Assembly (NCBI GenBank): GCA_902799185.1
Contig: CADBZO010000024.1
Span: 1 to 33,556, forward strand
Length of the DNA: 33,556 nucleotides
Source of the DNA: an uncultured Bacteroidales bacterium
GTDB lineage: Bacteria > Bacteroidota > Bacteroidia > Bacteroidales > Paludibacteraceae
Direction of reading: 5' to 3'
Shown here in pieces: positions 5,884 through 12,576 of the stretch; within the stretch, counting starts at the first letter, position 1; each line of letters opens with the position of its first letter. Under the pieces are notes generated by a model, which searched no databases, was not told the DNA's origin, and saw only the letters and a list, made by a program, of their open reading frames with translations. Both the position numbers and the translations under genes were made by a program.

Positions 5884-6446
5884 TCTTTTCTCTCCTCTGT
5901 TGCTTGTTTCTCGGATTGTTGCTCATCAAACCGTTTATCGTTTATATTACTTTGTTTCCATCGTTGGATGTTACGCCAAATATCTTTCCATTCGCGCTGG
6001 GTAATATACCATTTATTTTCCCGTCGCGGCGGGCGATAGACGTGGTGCATATGGATCTCCGTCTGTACGCGTCGCACTTCCGAAGAGTCAATGTTGTAAG
6101 TCTGTGCCAAACTATCGCCGAGCAGCAAGGCGTCCTGACGATCCACCTTACGGATATTCAATTCGTCCACTTTCACCTCTGTCCCGGGGTCATCCATCGG
6201 TAGCGAACGTATCTCCTCCACCACCAGTCTTGTCAGTTTGTATCCGCCGAATGCCAGCACAGCGAGCACAATGAACATCAAACCATAATAGGCTTGTTTG
6301 TCTTGCATCTTCATCCATCCTCCCCAACCGTTGGTCAGTTTGTCAGAGTGGAAAGAAGCATGATGATGGTGGTGGCGGTGTCTGCGTTTGCTCGCTTTAC
6401 GTTCCTCCCATTGCGGTTGATATGTCTTGATATCTTCGTCTGCCAT
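5880..6446 (-). CDS. Membrane-anchored protein with His-rich N-terminus
   Basis: 188 residues, family not recognised. The N-terminus is basic and histidine-rich (RRHRHHHHH at 21-29, further His at 33), then comes one hydrophobic helix at about 53-70. The remaining roughly 115 residues are predicted on the far side of the membrane and hold MHMHH-like and charged segments. The positive N-terminal side suggests N-in/C-out topology. The gene is locked between ffh and folD by TAATG (6444-6448) and ATGA (5880-5883) overlaps, so it is translated with the SRP GTPase. A role in metal binding or in membrane targeting could be proposed from the His run and the neighbour, but neither is shown. Confidence 0.75.
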   Translation of the reverse strand: MADEDIKTYQPQWEERKASKRRHRHHHHHASFHSDKLTNGWGGWMKMQDKQAYYGLMFIVLAVLAFGGYKLTRLVVEEIRSLPMDDPGTEVKVDELNIRKVDRQDALLLGDSLAQTYNIDSSEVRRVQTEIHMHHVYRPPRRENKWYITQREWKDIWRNIQRWKQSNINDKRFDEQQSEKQATEERKE

Positions 6447-7750
6447 TATCTGCGTTTAATGCTCATTTGCTGTACTTTACGCATCATCTTGGAGGTCTGT
6501 TCAAACTGCTTGAGGAAACGGTTAAGATCCACAATGGTGACGCCTGCTCCCTTGGCGATACGGTTCTTGCGGCTGCCGTTAAGCAGACCCGGGTTCGCAC
6601 GTTCTGCCGGGGTCATAGAATTGATCATCGCTTCAATAGGTTTGAAGGCGTCGTCGCTGACCTCCACGCCCTTGAGCGCCTTGTCCATGCCCGGAATCAT
6701 GCTCATCAGATCCTTCATGGAGCCCATCTTCTTGATTTGGTTGAGCTGGCCGATGAAGTCGTTGAAATCGAACTGGTTCTTGGCGATCTTCTTGCTGATA
6801 CGGCGAGCCTCGGCTTCGTCGTACTGCTCCTGGGCGCGTTCTACGAGGGAGACTACGTCACCCATTCCTAAGATCCTGTCCGCCATACGCGCCGGGTGGA
6901 ACACATCCAACGCCTCCATCTTCTCCCCCGTACCGATGAACTTAATCGGTTTGTTCACCACCGAACGGATGGAGAGTGCAGCACCGCCGCGGGCGTCACC
7001 GTCCAGTTTGGTCAGAACCACGCCGTCGAAATCGAGCCGCTCGTTGAATTCCTTGGCGGTATTGACGGCGTCCTGTCCGGTCATGGCATCGACGACGAAC
7101 AGCGTCTCGGACGGCGTGATAGCCTCCTTGATAGCCGCTATCTCGTTCATCATCTGCTCATCGACAGCCAGACGGCCGGCAGTATCGACGATCACCACAT
7201 CGTACCCCAAGCGTTTCGCCTCTTCGATGGCTGCTTTGGCTTTCTTTACAGGATCGGACTCGCCTTCACCGAGATAGACCTTGGCGTTGATCTGCTCGCC
7301 GAGCACACGGAGCTGCTCGATAGCCGCCGGACGATAAACGTCGCAGGCTACCAGCATCACGCGTTTGTTCTTTTTGGTCTGGAGCCAGTTGGCGAGTTTG
7401 GAAGCGAAAGTGGTCTTACCGCTACCCTGAAGACCGGACATCAGGATAACTGCCGGATTGCCCTTTAGGTTTATCTCCTGCGCTTCGCCACCCATCAGAG
7501 CCGCTAACTCATCGTGGGTGATCTTCACCATCAACTGCCCCGGACGGACACTGGTCATCACGTTCTGGCCCAGTGCTTTCTCCTTCACCTGGTCGGTAAA
7601 CTGCTTGGCCGTCTTGTAGTTCACATCCGCCTCCAAGAGGGCTTTGCGGATGTCTTTTACTGTCTCCGCAATATTAATCTCGGTAATACGGCCCTCACCT
7701 TTCAGTATCTTGAAAGACCGTTCTAATCGTTCGCTTAAATTATCAAACAT
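6446..7750 (-). CDS. ffh: Signal recognition particle GTPase Ffh (SRP54)
   Basis: 434 residues. The N-domain (1-90) is followed by the G-domain with P-loop GLQGSGKTT (106-114), DVYRPAA, DTAGR and TKLDGDARGG, then a Met-rich M-domain (about 300-434) with SMIPGM, the RNA-binding segment and a tail MMRKVQQMSIKRR. Ffh with 4.5S RNA binds signal sequences at the ribosome and delivers them to FtsY. The gene heads the operon; a Bacteroidota promoter at 7799-7830 lies about 40 nt upstream of the ATG. Confidence 0.97.
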   Translation of the reverse strand: MFDNLSERLERSFKILKGEGRITEINIAETVKDIRKALLEADVNYKTAKQFTDQVKEKALGQNVMTSVRPGQLMVKITHDELAALMGGEAQEINLKGNPAVILMSGLQGSGKTTFASKLANWLQTKKNKRVMLVACDVYRPAAIEQLRVLGEQINAKVYLGEGESDPVKKAKAAIEEAKRLGYDVVIVDTAGRLAVDEQMMNEIAAIKEAITPSETLFVVDAMTGQDAVNTAKEFNERLDFDGVVLTKLDGDARGGAALSIRSVVNKPIKFIGTGEKMEALDVFHPARMADRILGMGDVVSLVERAQEQYDEAEARRISKKIAKNQFDFNDFIGQLNQIKKMGSMKDLMSMIPGMDKALKGVEVSDDAFKPIEAMINSMTPAERANPGLLNGSRKNRIAKGAGVTIVDLNRFLKQFEQTSKMMRKVQQMSIKRR

Positions 7751-7755
7751 ATAGA

Positions 7756-7790
7756 CATTTACTATTTAGTCATTTACAATTTATTCATTT
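7756..7790. repeat. Repeat tract in the ffh leader
   Basis: Alternating 8- and 7-nt units (CATTTACT, ATTTAGT, CATTTACA, ATTTATT, CATTTT), in effect 2.5 copies of a 15-mer, filling nearly the whole untranslated leader between the promoter and the ffh start. Confidence 0.65.
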
Positions 7791-7798
7791 TGCGGGTG

Positions 7799-7830
7799 CA
7801 AAATTACAAAAAAAAAATGACATACGCAAA
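7799..7830 (-). promoter_or_regulatory. Promoter of the ffh operon
   Basis: Minus strand: TTTG (7827-7830), 20-nt spacer beginning CGTATGTCA then ten T, and TAATTTTG (7799-7806). The expected transcription start is near 7792, giving a leader of about 40 nt to the ffh ATG at 7750. The spacer is identical to that at 7-37. Confidence 0.85.
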
Positions 7831-7862
7831 CATATGCCACTCTTTTCTCGTATTTTTCCGTC

Positions 7863-7904
7863 TTTTTACTTTTGTCTTTTTACTTTTGTCTTTCTACTTT
7901 TGTC
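7863..7904. repeat. Period-7 tract supplying the stop codon of the transporter-OmpA fusion
   Basis: Six heptamers alternating TTTTTAC (one TTTCTAC) and TTTTGTC, in effect three 14-mers. The stop TAA of the fusion gene (7880-7882, minus strand) lies in the third unit, so the C-terminal residues TKVERQK are encoded by the repeat. Confidence 0.85.
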
Positions 7905-10756
7905 TCAATAGTTATCTCCACACGGCGGTTAAGCCGGCGTCCTTCCTCCGTATCGTTGGAGGCAACCGGCTGCGTATCGCCATAGCCCAAGGCGGTGATT
8001 CTCTCCGGTTCACAACCGTAAGCTATCAGTTGTTTCCGTACCGCTTCGGCGCGTGCCTTGGAGAGAGCCAGGTTATCCTCCGGCTTGCCTATATTATCCG
8101 TATGCCCGGACAACTGCACCCGGTAGCCGTAAGTCCGCACCAAGTCGGCTATGCGTCTCAACTCCGGCAGCGAGACGGGCATGATACTGTCGCTGGCGGT
8201 GGCAAAAAGCAGGTTGTTGATAGGCGTCGGTTCGTTGGCCTTTAGCACCGTAATCACCTCCGGCCGTTTGTCCTCCGGCAGCGTGATGGAATAGATGTCA
8301 TGCCGGCGACCGGCTTTCTGCGCGTAATATGCCGTCTTGCCGTCCGCTGTGATTTTGTACCAGCAGTCTCTTCCCGTGGTGTTGATCTGTTCCCCCAAGT
8401 TCTCCGGCTCGCTCCAACAGTTCCAGCAGGTGTCACTCTGCCGCCGGCTCACCCACACATCCAGATCGCCTATCGTCCCCTCCCTGTCGGAGGAGAAATA
8501 GAGCGTTTTCATATCCGGGTGCAGAAACGGCGAGCGTTCCATGCCGCGGGTGTTGACCGCCGGGCCGATAGAGAACGGTTTGCCCCAACGGCCTTGTGCA
8601 TCCCGGACGGAAACGAAGATATTGAGAGACGGTTTGTCTTCTCCTCCTGCCGGATAGTTGGCGGCAAAAAGAAGCGCCTTGCCGTCTGCGGTAATCATCG
8701 CATCCGCCTGCCAGTTGCCTATCTGCAAGGTCTGCGGCAGCGGTCTGGGTTCCGTCCAGCCGCGGTGCGGTATATGTTGCGAGAAGCACATCCGTCCTTC
8801 GATAAACAGCAGCATCATCCCCCCGTCGCCGGAAACGGATGTAGGTGCCTCGTTGCGATAAGGATTGCTCAGTTCGGGAACACGGCGGGCACTGCCCCAC
8901 TCGCCCGTCTTGGGGTTACGGTGCGATATATATATGTCTTCGCTCGTAGAGCCGTCTTCGCGGTTAAGGCCCACGAAATACAGTGTATTGTCATCCATGC
9001 TCAGTACGGGTCCGTATTCCTCGCCGGCTAAGGTATTGACAGCAGGCGGCAGGAGCTCCGGGCGGATGGAGTCGTTGGAGGTAAAACTACAGAAAATAAG
9101 CACTAATAGTTGCGCTGCCATCACCCGCAGGAAGGTCGTGAACGGATAGACGGTGGCGTAGCACACGGATGCCTGGTTGTTCTCGTTGGAGAGCGATTGT
9201 GCATAAGGCAAAGCCATAGCGGAAGTCATGGAGCCGATGAGCAGACCGACGACGGTGAAATAGTTCATCTTCATCCATTTATAGGCAATAGCACCTATCG
9301 TCAGCAGCGGCACGATGGTGATGACAAAGCCGTATCCGATCCATAGATAGCCGCCGTTCATGAGTGTCGGCATGAAGCCCTCACCTACACTCAGCCCCAA
9401 GGCTGCCAGGAAGAGCGTCAGGCCCAACTGCCGCGCCATCATGTTTGCCGAGGTGGTGGAGAAAGTGACCATGTTGTAATACGGTCCGTAATGGCCGATG
9501 AGAATAGCCACGATCAGCGAACCGCCTACGAGGCCTAATTTGAACGTCTGTCCCATACCCGGCAACGGGATCGGCAGTAATCCCACGCATATACCCAGTA
9601 CCATACCGAAGAACACCGGCATCAGATGCGGCACATCAAGCCTTTTCAGCTCGTTGCCGAAAGTCTCCGCTACGCGGCTCACGTCATGTTTGTCGCCCAC
9701 GACCATGAGCCTGTCGCCCAACTGAAGGACCATATCGTCCGTGGCTAACAGGTCAATACCGGCACGGCTGACACGCGTGATGGTAGCGTGGTACTGCTGC
9801 CTGAGATTGAACGAACGGATACGTTTGCCGTTGCACTCCGGCTTGGTCACCGCGATACGGCGGGAGATCAGATGGTCCGATTTCTCATGTTGCACACGCA
9901 AGTCATAATCCCGCATCTGCCCCAGCAGCCGCAAGGCGTCCAGATGCTGTCTGTCGGTCAGGATACGCAGTGTGTCGCCGTTGCTGAATGTCGTCTGGTC
10001 GTTCACCAGTTCGTCCGACCCGTCGGGACGGATGACACGACTGACAACCATCTCTTTAACCGGGCATATACGCACCAGCTCACTCATCGTCAGTACACCT
10101 ATCTGCGGGTTATTGAGGGTGATATCCACACAGAGCGGCTCCTCGTTGTCTTTCTGCGCCGCCTCGCGCAGCCTTTTCTCCTCTTCGGGCAGACTGACGC
10201 GGAAGGAGAGCCGTATCAGTTCAAACGCCAGGATGATACCTACTATACTCAGCGGATACGCCACCGCATAACCGGTAGCTATATCGGGGTTCGTGCTGCC
10301 CGTCAGGTCGAAATACGCCTGCTGCACCGCCGCCAGCGAAGGCGTGGAGGTCGTTGCACCGGACATCACGCCCGCCATTGTCCCCATCTCTATCCCCGTG
10401 GCGTAATGCAGTACGATCGCGCACACGCATCCTAACAGCACTACCGCCGCGGCAAGCATGTTCAACTGCAACACGCCCCGCTTGAACGGCGAGAAAGAAG
10501 GGCCTACCTGCAAACCGATAGAATAGACGAAAAGGATGAGACCGAAGTCCTTGGCGAACTGCTCTACCGAGTGGTCTATCTGCACGCCTGCCGAGGCAAA
10601 CGCGATACCGACAAACAGCACCCACGTCACACCTAACGAGAAATGACGTATCTTTGCTTTCTCGCCCAGCCACAGGCCGATAGTCATCACAATCGTCAAC
10701 CACAGCAGCGACTGCGTGATGGACGGATTAAACAAAAACTGCTCTATGCTATTCAT
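7880..10756 (-). CDS. AspT/YidE-type transporter fused to a PD40 propeller and OmpA domain
   Basis: 958 residues in one uninterrupted frame. Residues 1-190 hold the first membrane block. Two RCK_C (TrkA-C) domains follow at about 205-280 and 295-373. Residues 378-556 are the second membrane block, with the TVYPFTTFLRVMAAQLLVL ending typical of the C-terminus of AspT/YidE/YbjL transporters. At about 557 the protein continues as a periplasmic-type module: PD40/WD40-like strands (about 580-830; SMDDNTLYF, ADGKALLFA, PDMKTLYFSSDR) and an OmpA C-terminal domain (about 845-952; LSGHTDN, LSKARAEAVRKQL, GYGDTQPVASN, GRRLNRRVEI) that in known families binds peptidoglycan. Published AspT topology puts the C-terminus outside, which agrees with a periplasmic tail. 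Last gene of the gyrA operon, 3 nt after cinA. An internal ATG at 9119-9121 begins a signal-peptide-like segment. The domains are clear; substrate and purpose are unknown. Confidence 0.9.
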   Translation of the reverse strand: MNSIEQFLFNPSITQSLLWLTIVMTIGLWLGEKAKIRHFSLGVTWVLFVGIAFASAGVQIDHSVEQFAKDFGLILFVYSIGLQVGPSFSPFKRGVLQLNMLAAAVVLLGCVCAIVLHYATGIEMGTMAGVMSGATTSTPSLAAVQQAYFDLTGSTNPDIATGYAVAYPLSIVGIILAFELIRLSFRVSLPEEEKRLREAAQKDNEEPLCVDITLNNPQIGVLTMSELVRICPVKEMVVSRVIRPDGSDELVNDQTTFSNGDTLRILTDRQHLDALRLLGQMRDYDLRVQHEKSDHLISRRIAVTKPECNGKRIRSFNLRQQYHATITRVSRAGIDLLATDDMVLQLGDRLMVVGDKHDVSRVAETFGNELKRLDVPHLMPVFFGMVLGICVGLLPIPLPGMGQTFKLGLVGGSLIVAILIGHYGPYYNMVTFSTTSANMMARQLGLTLFLAALGLSVGEGFMPTLMNGGYLWIGYGFVITIVPLLTIGAIAYKWMKMNYFTVVGLLIGSMTSAMALPYAQSLSNENNQASVCYATVYPFTTFLRVMAAQLLVLIFCSFTSNDSIRPELLPPAVNTLAGEEYGPVLSMDDNTLYFVGLNREDGSTSEDIYISHRNPKTGEWGSARRVPELSNPYRNEAPTSVSGDGGMMLLFIEGRMCFSQHIPHRGWTEPRPLPQTLQIGNWQADAMITADGKALLFAANYPAGGEDKPSLNIFVSVRDAQGRWGKPFSIGPAVNTRGMERSPFLHPDMKTLYFSSDREGTIGDLDVWVSRRQSDTCWNCWSEPENLGEQINTTGRDCWYKITADGKTAYYAQKAGRRHDIYSITLPEDKRPEVITVLKANEPTPINNLLFATASDSIMPVSLPELRRIADLVRTYGYRVQLSGHTDNIGKPEDNLALSKARAEAVRKQLIAYGCEPERITALGYGDTQPVASNDTEEGRRLNRRVEITIETKVERQK

Positions 10757-10759
10757 TGC

Positions 10760-12007
10760 TTATTCTCTTAACAACCGTATCAGTCCGATCAGTGCTTTCA
10801 TGCAGGCGCGGTCGGTGATCTGCTCGCGTAGCTTGCCCAGGTGGAAGCACTCGGCGGTGGTGCCTTCGGGTGTTGCCCAGGCTATCCACACCGTGCCGAC
10901 GGGCTTCTCTGCCGTGCCTCCGGAAGGACCTGCAATGCCGCTGGTAGCAATCGCATAATCCGTCCCTATCAGTTTGCGAACGGACTCGGCCATCACGCGC
11001 ACTACTTCTTCGCTTACCACGCCGTGCGTTTTTATCATCTCTTCGGGAACACCTAAGAGATGCTCTTTGACGGAGTTGTCATAGCTGACGACGGAGCCCC
11101 AATAGAAAGCCGAACTGCCGGCATGTTTGTTGAACATGGCGGCTAACTTGCCTCCCGTGCAGCTCTCCGCCGTTGCGACAGTAGCGCCGCGTTCTTGCAG
11201 CCGGCGTCCTGCAATCACCTCCAACGGCTCGTCCGTCTCGGCAATCAGATAATCCGCCACCAGCGTCTTCAGCCGTCCGAACCACTCGTTCATCTCCGCC
11301 TCCGCAGCCTCGCCGTAGGACGACAGACGCAGACGGATGATACCGTCCTTGGGCAGATACGCCAGATGGAGATACCCGGGTTTGGAATTCTCGTAATCCT
11401 CTAAGATAATCGCCAGCGACGACTCCGGTATGCCCGTCACCTGCAACGTACGGTGCAGAATATGCCCTGATTCGTAATTCGTAATTTTTAATTCGTAATT
11501 CTCAATATACGGCAGTATCTGCTCGTCCATGGCAATCTTCATCTCGTACGGCACACCGGGCATGGAAGCCAGTATCTTGTCTCCCTTATGAAAAACCATC
11601 AGCGGCGCGGAGCCTACCCTGTTCTCTAATATCTCCGCGCACTCCGGCACCAGCCATTGCGTAGCCGTCAGGCGGTTCAGCACCTCCGGCCGCTCCTTGT
11701 ATAAATCATGGATATGCGCCCGCACCCGCGTATCTTCCACGAGGTGTGTCCCGAAATACTCGCACAGCACCTGCTTGGTGATGTCATCTTTGGTGGGTCC
11801 CAAGCCGCCGGTTGTCAGGACGATGTCCGCCCTGCCGAAAGCCTCTTCCAGCGCTGCGATGATATGTGCACGGTCGTCATGCACGGACGTGATCTGGAAC
11901 AACTCTATGCCGTTCTCATTCAGCCGCTGCGCCATCCAGGCGGAGTTGGTATCGACTACCTGGCCGATCAGCAACTCGTCTCCAATAGTGATTATCTCTG
12001 CTCGCAT
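10760..12007 (-). CDS. cinA: CinA family protein (competence/damage-inducible; NMN amidase-type)
   Basis: 415 residues from the ATG at 12005-12007 (MRAEIITIGDELLIGQVVDT). N-terminal MoCF-like domain with the LTTGGLGPTKDD motif (about 65-80), and C-terminal CinA domain (about 255-415) with TAESCTGGKLAAM, SYDNSVK, HGVVSEEVV and ATSGIAGPSGG. C-terminal CinA domains deamidate nicotinamide mononucleotide in pyridine nucleotide recycling; the N-terminal domain in related proteins hydrolyses ADP-ribose. ATG at 12017-12019 is an alternative start. The start overlaps the stop of the DUF3109 gene by 16 nt. A period-7 repeat (11470-11504) encodes an extra segment NYELKITNYE just before the conserved HILHRTLQVTG. 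Confidence 0.93.
   Translation of the reverse strand: MRAEIITIGDELLIGQVVDTNSAWMAQRLNENGIELFQITSVHDDRAHIIAALEEAFGRADIVLTTGGLGPTKDDITKQVLCEYFGTHLVEDTRVRAHIHDLYKERPEVLNRLTATQWLVPECAEILENRVGSAPLMVFHKGDKILASMPGVPYEMKIAMDEQILPYIENYELKITNYESGHILHRTLQVTGIPESSLAIILEDYENSKPGYLHLAYLPKDGIIRLRLSSYGEAAEAEMNEWFGRLKTLVADYLIAETDEPLEVIAGRRLQERGATVATAESCTGGKLAAMFNKHAGSSAFYWGSVVSYDNSVKEHLLGVPEEMIKTHGVVSEEVVRVMAESVRKLIGTDYAIATSGIAGPSGGTAEKPVGTVWIAWATPEGTTAECFHLGKLREQITDRACMKALIGLIRLLRE
11470..11504. repeat. Period-7 tract inside cinA
   Basis: Five heptamers on the plus strand: ATTCGTA three times, ATTTTTA once, and a diverged ATTCTCA. This is the same unit as the intergenic tract at 13708-13756. In the gene it encodes ENYELKITNYE between the two CinA domains. 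Confidence 0.85.
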
Positions 12008-12576
12008 TGTTTTTTCCATTCTGTTGCGGTTAACTCCAACTCGTCGTACCACTCCTTGCCGAAACGCCGGATCAGCGGTTCTTTCAAAAACTGATACAGC
12101 GGCACGTGGTTCTTCTTGCCTAAGACGCGTGCGCAGTGGCATATGTCCCACCGGTGGTACTCCACTCCTACGCGCTCGCCTACTTGCGACAGACGTATCG
12201 GGTACAGATGGCACGAGACAGGCTTCTTGAAATCAATCTTGCCGGCGTTATAGGCCTTCTCTATCAGACAGTAGCACCAGCCGTTATGGTCGGTACGGGC
12301 GAAGACGCAGTCTTTGTCGTTGACGATTGATGTCACCCGTTCCCCGGAAGGATCGTTATACGCAATACCTTGTGCTGCTACCACCGCCTTGGCCTCCGGC
12401 GTCATATCCGGCAGCAGGAGAGGAAGTATCTCGTTGATCTTCTGTTCCTCTTCGGCCTCTAACGGTGCTCCTGCATCACCTTCGATACAGCAACAGCCGC
12501 GGCATTTGTCCAGATCGCAGCAGAACTCCTTCTCCAGCACATCCAGACTGACCAGTGTGTCACCTATTATAAACAT
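11992..12576 (-). CDS. DUF3109 family cysteine-rich protein
   Basis: 194 residues. The N-terminal cysteine cluster has Cys at 19, 20, 25, 28, 29 and 30 (CCDLDKCRGCCCIEGDAGAP), with later cysteines in NDKDCVFA, GWCYCLIEKA, KPVSCHLYPIR and DICHCARV. The pattern matches DUF3109 proteins of Bacteroidota and resembles Zn- or Fe-S-binding YkgJ-type proteins. The function is unknown; metal binding is a reasonable inference. It overlaps the upstream mntP by 10 nt and the downstream cinA by 16 nt. Confidence 0.88.
   Translation of the reverse strand: MFIIGDTLVSLDVLEKEFCCDLDKCRGCCCIEGDAGAPLEAEEEQKINEILPLLLPDMTPEAKAVVAAQGIAYNDPSGERVTSIVNDKDCVFARTDHNGWCYCLIEKAYNAGKIDFKKPVSCHLYPIRLSQVGERVGVEYHRWDICHCARVLGKKNHVPLYQFLKEPLIRRFGKEWYDELELTATEWKKQCEQR

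Follow-up and report, generated by a model that had tools for sequence, protein, structure and literature searches.

Carriers of the inner membrane are generally regarded as freely mobile, and the site usually assigned to PD40-OmpA proteins is at the outer membrane. AspT of Tetragenococcus halophilus (8y1x, 8xw5, 9oqy) consists of two membrane blocks with a large loop and has no periplasmic tail, and the known members of the YidE family (PRK03818) stop after their last helix. Among PD40-OmpA proteins, PorE of the type IX secretion system is a lipoprotein of the outer membrane that also carries TPR and CRD domains, and in both PorE and the OmpA-like protein CHU_0125 a propeller is followed by an OmpA domain. 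TolB-Pal likewise combines a propeller with an OmpA-type wall binder, divided there between two proteins. In MotB/PomB and TssL-type proteins, an outward-going inner-membrane helix carries the OmpA domain; these proteins have no propeller, and what they work with in the membrane belongs to a motor or secretion system and is not a carrier in one chain.

Here we report a gene in which a YidE-type carrier and a PD40-OmpA module are joined in one chain. The window, a stretch of 33,556 nucleotides from an uncultured Bacteroidales bacterium of the Paludibacteraceae, contains at 7880..10756 on the minus strand a single open reading frame of 958 codons, as the earlier note, made from the sequence alone, had described; it starts with ATG and has no internal stop. 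All parts of the gene are given here on that strand. The carrier half (residues 1-556, 9089..10756) has two Asp-Al_Ex membrane blocks flanking TrkA_C domains and ends in a membrane helix (residues 528-556, 9089..9175) predicted from the model, the charges and the family topology to run from inside to outside. A linker of variable sequence and nearly constant length (residues 557-575, 9032..9088) leads to a PD40 beta-propeller (residues 576-830, 8267..9031), recognized by Pfam, the structure model and Foldseek, and to a predicted OmpA-type peptidoglycan-binding domain (residues 846-950, 7907..8221). The join lies where it had been placed, at the end of the last helix: codon 9091-9089 encodes residue 556, the Cys of LLVLIFC, and the propeller starts about 20 residues later.

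Pfam matched Asp-Al_Ex in two stretches (239 bits), TrkA_C at residues 308-367, PD40 at 731-769 and OmpA at 850-944, the last above its cut-off (67.3 against 27.2). Two RCK_C domains had been claimed for the carrier half; one stands as a TrkA_C match over the cut-off, while the second stretch reaches 19.4 bits alone against a cut-off of 27 and is likely from the model, which shows two alpha/beta units between the membrane blocks. The claim of a complete carrier was borne out by the NCBIfam model PRK03818 (YidE), which scored 574.3 against a cut-off of 449 and was covered from position 3 to 551 of 553, so that carrier sequence has not been lost and this half is a full-length family member by score and coverage, with 402 further residues after the last helix where known members stop. 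The same genome has a second carrier of the YidE-type family, unfused and 48% identical.

By sequence and fold, the best solved relatives of the carrier half are the AspT structures 8y1x and 8xw5, although the protein is distant from AspT proper (TIGR03802; 173 against a cut-off of 546.95). It is also distant from PorE (96.2 against 600) and from CHU_0125 (139 against 620), and unlike these it bears a carrier at the N-terminus. What the earlier note says of PD40-OmpA proteins, that they are normally separate and lie in the outer membrane or periplasm, agrees with PorE and related proteins. AspT, OmpA domains and TolB were among the Foldseek matches of the structure model, and the OmpA domain matches MotB/PomB structures. 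The carrier half is weakly modelled (mean pLDDT 69, pTM 0.46, residues 368-460 below 50) and superposes poorly on AspT (rmsd 21.6), so the helix limits hold only approximately; confidence is higher in the tail, where most blocks score in the 80s. In a search of open-licence papers we noticed no report of a carrier/PD40-OmpA fusion, and this domain architecture is new, real and conserved.

The side of the membrane on which the tail lies can be predicted from the family. Table 1 of PMC8396727 gives the Asp_Al_Ex family as 10H-2RH-Nout, and PMC9527358 describes AspT with ten helices plus two re-entry helices; a chain that has its N-terminus outside and crosses the membrane ten times also has its C-terminus outside, as the earlier note had assumed. 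Positive charges agree with the family topology: with segment limits taken from the model of mean pLDDT 69, and hence approximate, there is one Lys or Arg in the five segments assigned to the outside, compared with five in the four short segments assigned to the inside and 29 in the cytoplasmic domain. The C-terminal tail is thus predicted to lie outside, and for the proposed MotB-like feature, an inside-to-outside helix ahead of a periplasmic OmpA domain, charges and family topology agree, with helix limits drawn from a weak model.

The OmpA domain appears equipped to bind the wall. In PorE, the side chains D576, N584 and R591 hold peptidoglycan (PMC7192894); their counterparts here are D887, N895 and R902, at matching spacing, and this trio is found in 31 of 31 OmpA-bearing rows of a 39-row alignment. 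The Asp, Asn and Arg side chains that hold the DAP residue in OmpA domains are thereby all present, consistent with the proposal that the tail could tether the carrier to the cell wall. In two fused proteins, L061 and L064, the chain stops behind the propeller, and the 450 bases that follow encode no OmpA domain in any of the forward frames. G115 has another frame of comparable length, 857 codons.

The fusion is common within one genus. Counted over the rows listed, a junction query of 201 residues across the join, run on 178 genomes of the genus, was spanned by an open frame over its whole length in 44 of them, the window's own included (841-985 codons), and one more fusion is interrupted by a contig end. 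Thirteen genomes match the tail only, at 58-77% identity and with no carrier joined; in two of these the frame is longer, at 705 and 820 codons. Another five have a carrier that is close over the stretch (79-89%) and stops at the join, without a tail, and the remainder show no match or more distant matches only. On public MAG contigs, which overlap with the genus genomes so that the counts are not additive, 39 of 52 loci are fused, one of them interrupted by a contig end; the others comprise five close carriers alone, two distant carriers, five tails alone and one distant PD40-OmpA protein. These records are titled Paludibacteraceae or Bacteroidales and many are named after ruminant gut samples, the nearest being RUG12032 at 96% identity.

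Wider searches gave a different picture. For 393 genomes of the order, the longest open frame behind a listed Asp-Al_Ex match is 623 residues, and among 395 genomes of the phylum the junction query was spanned only in the window's own genome; a distant fusion could escape both searches. A wide family of such fusions is rejected on these results; in the genomes sampled here, the fusion belongs to a single genus.

The same survey bears on the suspicion that the frame is an artefact of assembly, or of a stop codon lost near 9090. The window does sit in a fragmented draft of 55 contigs, yet the open frame is shared by 43 further genomes of the genus and selection is detected over the join, which together rule out such an error and leave this explanation with a negligible chance. 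A base error with all relatives encoding two separate genes, which the earlier note had held out as the alternative, is excluded by the spread of the open frame.

Selection was estimated from 15 pairs of fused genes (14 for the linker and the OmpA domain), and dN/dS is below 1 in every region giving a value. It ranges from 0.013 to 0.069 in the carrier and from 0.031 to 0.100 in the propeller, from 0 to 0.281 across residues 540-580, from 0 to 0.264 in the linker, and from 0 to 0.445 in the OmpA domain, where the upper value rests on a dS of 0.03 and very few changes. Judged by these ratios, both halves and the join are maintained as protein under purifying selection. The linker is the least conserved part, at 53-84% identity to the window compared with the 76-97% typical of the carrier and propeller halves.

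The fused gene occupies a defined chromosomal slot. Gene order in the group runs gyrA, a TPR gene, two small genes, Mntp, a small gene, cinA and then a variable occupant; cinA (10760..12214, minus strand in the window), the fixed left neighbour, lies 3 nt upstream of the fused gene. The slot may hold the fusion, the carrier alone (L071, L075, L079, L087) or the tail alone (L081, L082, L083, L085 and others), and where a phosphoesterase gene is found downstream it belongs to the same family at 18 fused, two carrier-only (L079, L087) and four tail-only (L082-L085) loci. In many relatives this gene lies between the slot and ffh, or instead of ffh. The window's right neighbour is ffh (6446..7750, minus strand), and in the window, L038 and L080 it stands in the place of the phosphoesterase gene or next to it; in the window there is no phosphoesterase gene in 7751-7879 and ffh comes straight after the fused gene, as it does in L038 and L080. 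A weak terminator-like hairpin with a 20-pair stem lies just after the fused gene (7807..7850, minus strand), one of four such sites in a region where 3.8 are expected.

In more distant loci of the same genus (L120, L133, L135), what comes after cinA is a carrier of 61-62% identity without a tail, and unfused tail homologs (47-57% identical in the propeller) are located elsewhere; that of L128 neighbours genes for an ABC-F ATPase, Tex, dihydrofolate reductase and thymidylate synthase. L073/L137 (G170) holds a tailless carrier that shares 85% identity with the window's and is located apart from cinA. Broken carrier frames, which may reflect sequencing error or decay, were also seen, near the N-terminus in L063 and in two pieces in L016 and in a paralogue at G034:C46.

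At some loci the frame of the tail is joined to that of a different upstream partner. In G162 (L084/L139, 820 codons) and G169 (L121, 705 codons), the cinA frame continues through a hydrophobic stretch into the propeller with no stop between, and from the reading frames this slot appears to hold another type of fusion as well. At the DNA level the G169 propeller shares 98% identity with its counterpart in the fused L064, compared with 78% for cinA, and the similarity to L064 starts within the last carrier helix. It follows that the carrier was lost from a fused allele, or from a portion of one, and that the last part of the helix was left ahead of the tail.

The junction itself is strongly conserved among distinct fused proteins: an FC pair is present in 40 of 40 and FCSFT in 39 of 40, and in 35 of 40 the Cys and the propeller motif are separated by 21 residues. 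PorE has a lipoprotein signal; here a lipobox is absent from the junction in all 40, and lipoprotein release at the conserved Cys was rejected. Another possibility is that the product is a polyprotein, in which the last carrier helix would act as a signal peptide and the PD40-OmpA part would be released by a peptidase, so that one gene yields two ordinary proteins. Homologs outside the group (L126, L127, L128, L132) are indeed separate proteins with signal-peptide-like starts, the halves are separable in evolution, and a loose signal-peptidase-like site lies just past the helix in 13 of the 40 fused junctions. The absence of any lipobox, the 27 of 40 junctions (the window's included) that lack even a loose site, and the retention of FCSFT all speak against this, and we consider processing of this kind improbable. 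In the 11 tail-only reading frames inspected (nine distinct), a strongly hydrophobic stretch precedes the propeller in every case, with no lipobox in any and a loose cleavage-like match somewhere in each. Anchoring by the helix is, from the junction sequences, the simpler reading, and a single uncleaved product is what they would predict.

The tail might instead be translated, besides or in place of the fusion, from a start codon within the last helix that would give it a short signal sequence. Many fused genes do have an ATG before the helix end (the Met in FLRVM), and tail-only relatives begin in just such a place; against this, the fused relatives L055, L057, L059 and L012 have Leu, Ile or Val at this position, and the Met is present in unfused carriers as well. 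An internal start is weakened by these substitutions and seems to us very improbable.

The history of the slot was approached through an IQ-TREE phylogeny of the flanking genes with 43 rows (32 fused, six carrier-only including two outgroups, and five tail-only). To enter this tree a locus needed at least four of six markers, which removed, among others, the window's short locus, L082, L120 and L134; four duplicates were omitted as well. L070, where a contig end falls inside the propeller, is counted there as fused and labelled T elsewhere. Eight changes of state are required on this tree, in which carrier-only and tail-only rows are nested among fused ones. Several sister pairs of unlike state have support of 99-100, such as carrier-only L071 with fused L076 and fused L059 with tail-only L084, both at 100. 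Clustering by state is modest for single states (as low in 47, 18 and 81 of 500 shuffles of the labels), and for all three states together it was as low in 1 of 200. An earlier FastTree phylogeny of 46 rows differs in details, for example in the place of L061, and shows the same nesting. The simplest story for these sequences would be one fusion in the ancestor of the clade followed by loss or exchange, and the carrier-only and tail-only states may have arisen by loss or by exchange between lineages.

Exchange has left a visible trace in one case. Identity of L058 to L045 and L060 is 92-99% between the start codon and roughly codon 560, and on either side it is lower, at about 63-88%, which makes recombination certain from the sequence comparison. 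Because gyrA is also close in this case (93-94%), the imported part is the carrier or else its surroundings. The edges of the patch lie near the carrier start and the domain join; its confinement to the carrier half indicates that the halves are exchanged separately. When all 666 pairs having all three regions were screened, six passed the filter, two for the L058 case and four for the generally divergent L061, and the reverse filter passed none.

Taken together, we favour the reading, to which we give a probability of roughly 0.55, that the YidE-type carrier and the periplasmic PD40-OmpA module are produced as a single inner-membrane protein whose halves are largely independent. The tenth carrier helix, passing from inside to outside, would act as both export signal and membrane anchor for the tail; the propeller would be held no more than about 20 residues from the membrane, and peptidoglycan would be gripped by the OmpA domain, which would so tie the carrier to the wall. 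Seen conversely, a wall-binding module may have borrowed a carrier as its membrane anchor, comparable to MotB-like proteins with their one helix. That the two halves would function largely independently is suggested by the fact that either is kept alone, that the tail has been joined to different sequence upstream, that the OmpA part has been dropped and that the carrier has been exchanged separately.

Against this reading stands the long conservation of one frame in 44 species-level genomes together with a near constant linker length, which can be read as selection for the joint protein and would, if so, favour a functional coupling. In a wall-coupled carrier, peptidoglycan binding by the tail, or a propeller ligand, would gate or place the carrier, and transport would answer to the wall. 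The retention of the frame, the purifying selection on both halves and linker, the conserved wall-binding residues, and a linker whose constant length would set the propeller at the outer mouth of the carrier are all consistent with such coupling. However, either half has been lost or exchanged separately at the same locus, the OmpA domain is absent from L061 and L064, and the linker is the part least conserved in sequence. We therefore regard coupling as doubtful and obligate wall control of transport as unlikely. Rather less probable still is the version in which the wall-bound propeller is a gate or sensor at the outer mouth, so that wall state or ligand controls exchange and some lineages later freed one half. 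The suggestion in the earlier note that wall or ligand state influences transport is, as stated, unsupported by these data, given the halves kept alone, the two losses of the OmpA domain and the patch confined to the carrier half.

On the favoured reading of a single anchored protein with largely independent halves, one chain would tie a carrier to the wall, unlike the usual picture of mobile carriers. The locus would also be a clear case in which a topogenic helix lets a periplasmic module switch its membrane anchor. Natural controls are present in one slot, as carrier alone, tail alone, fusion without the OmpA domain and CinA-linked tails, and with these the effect of wall tethering on a carrier can be asked directly.
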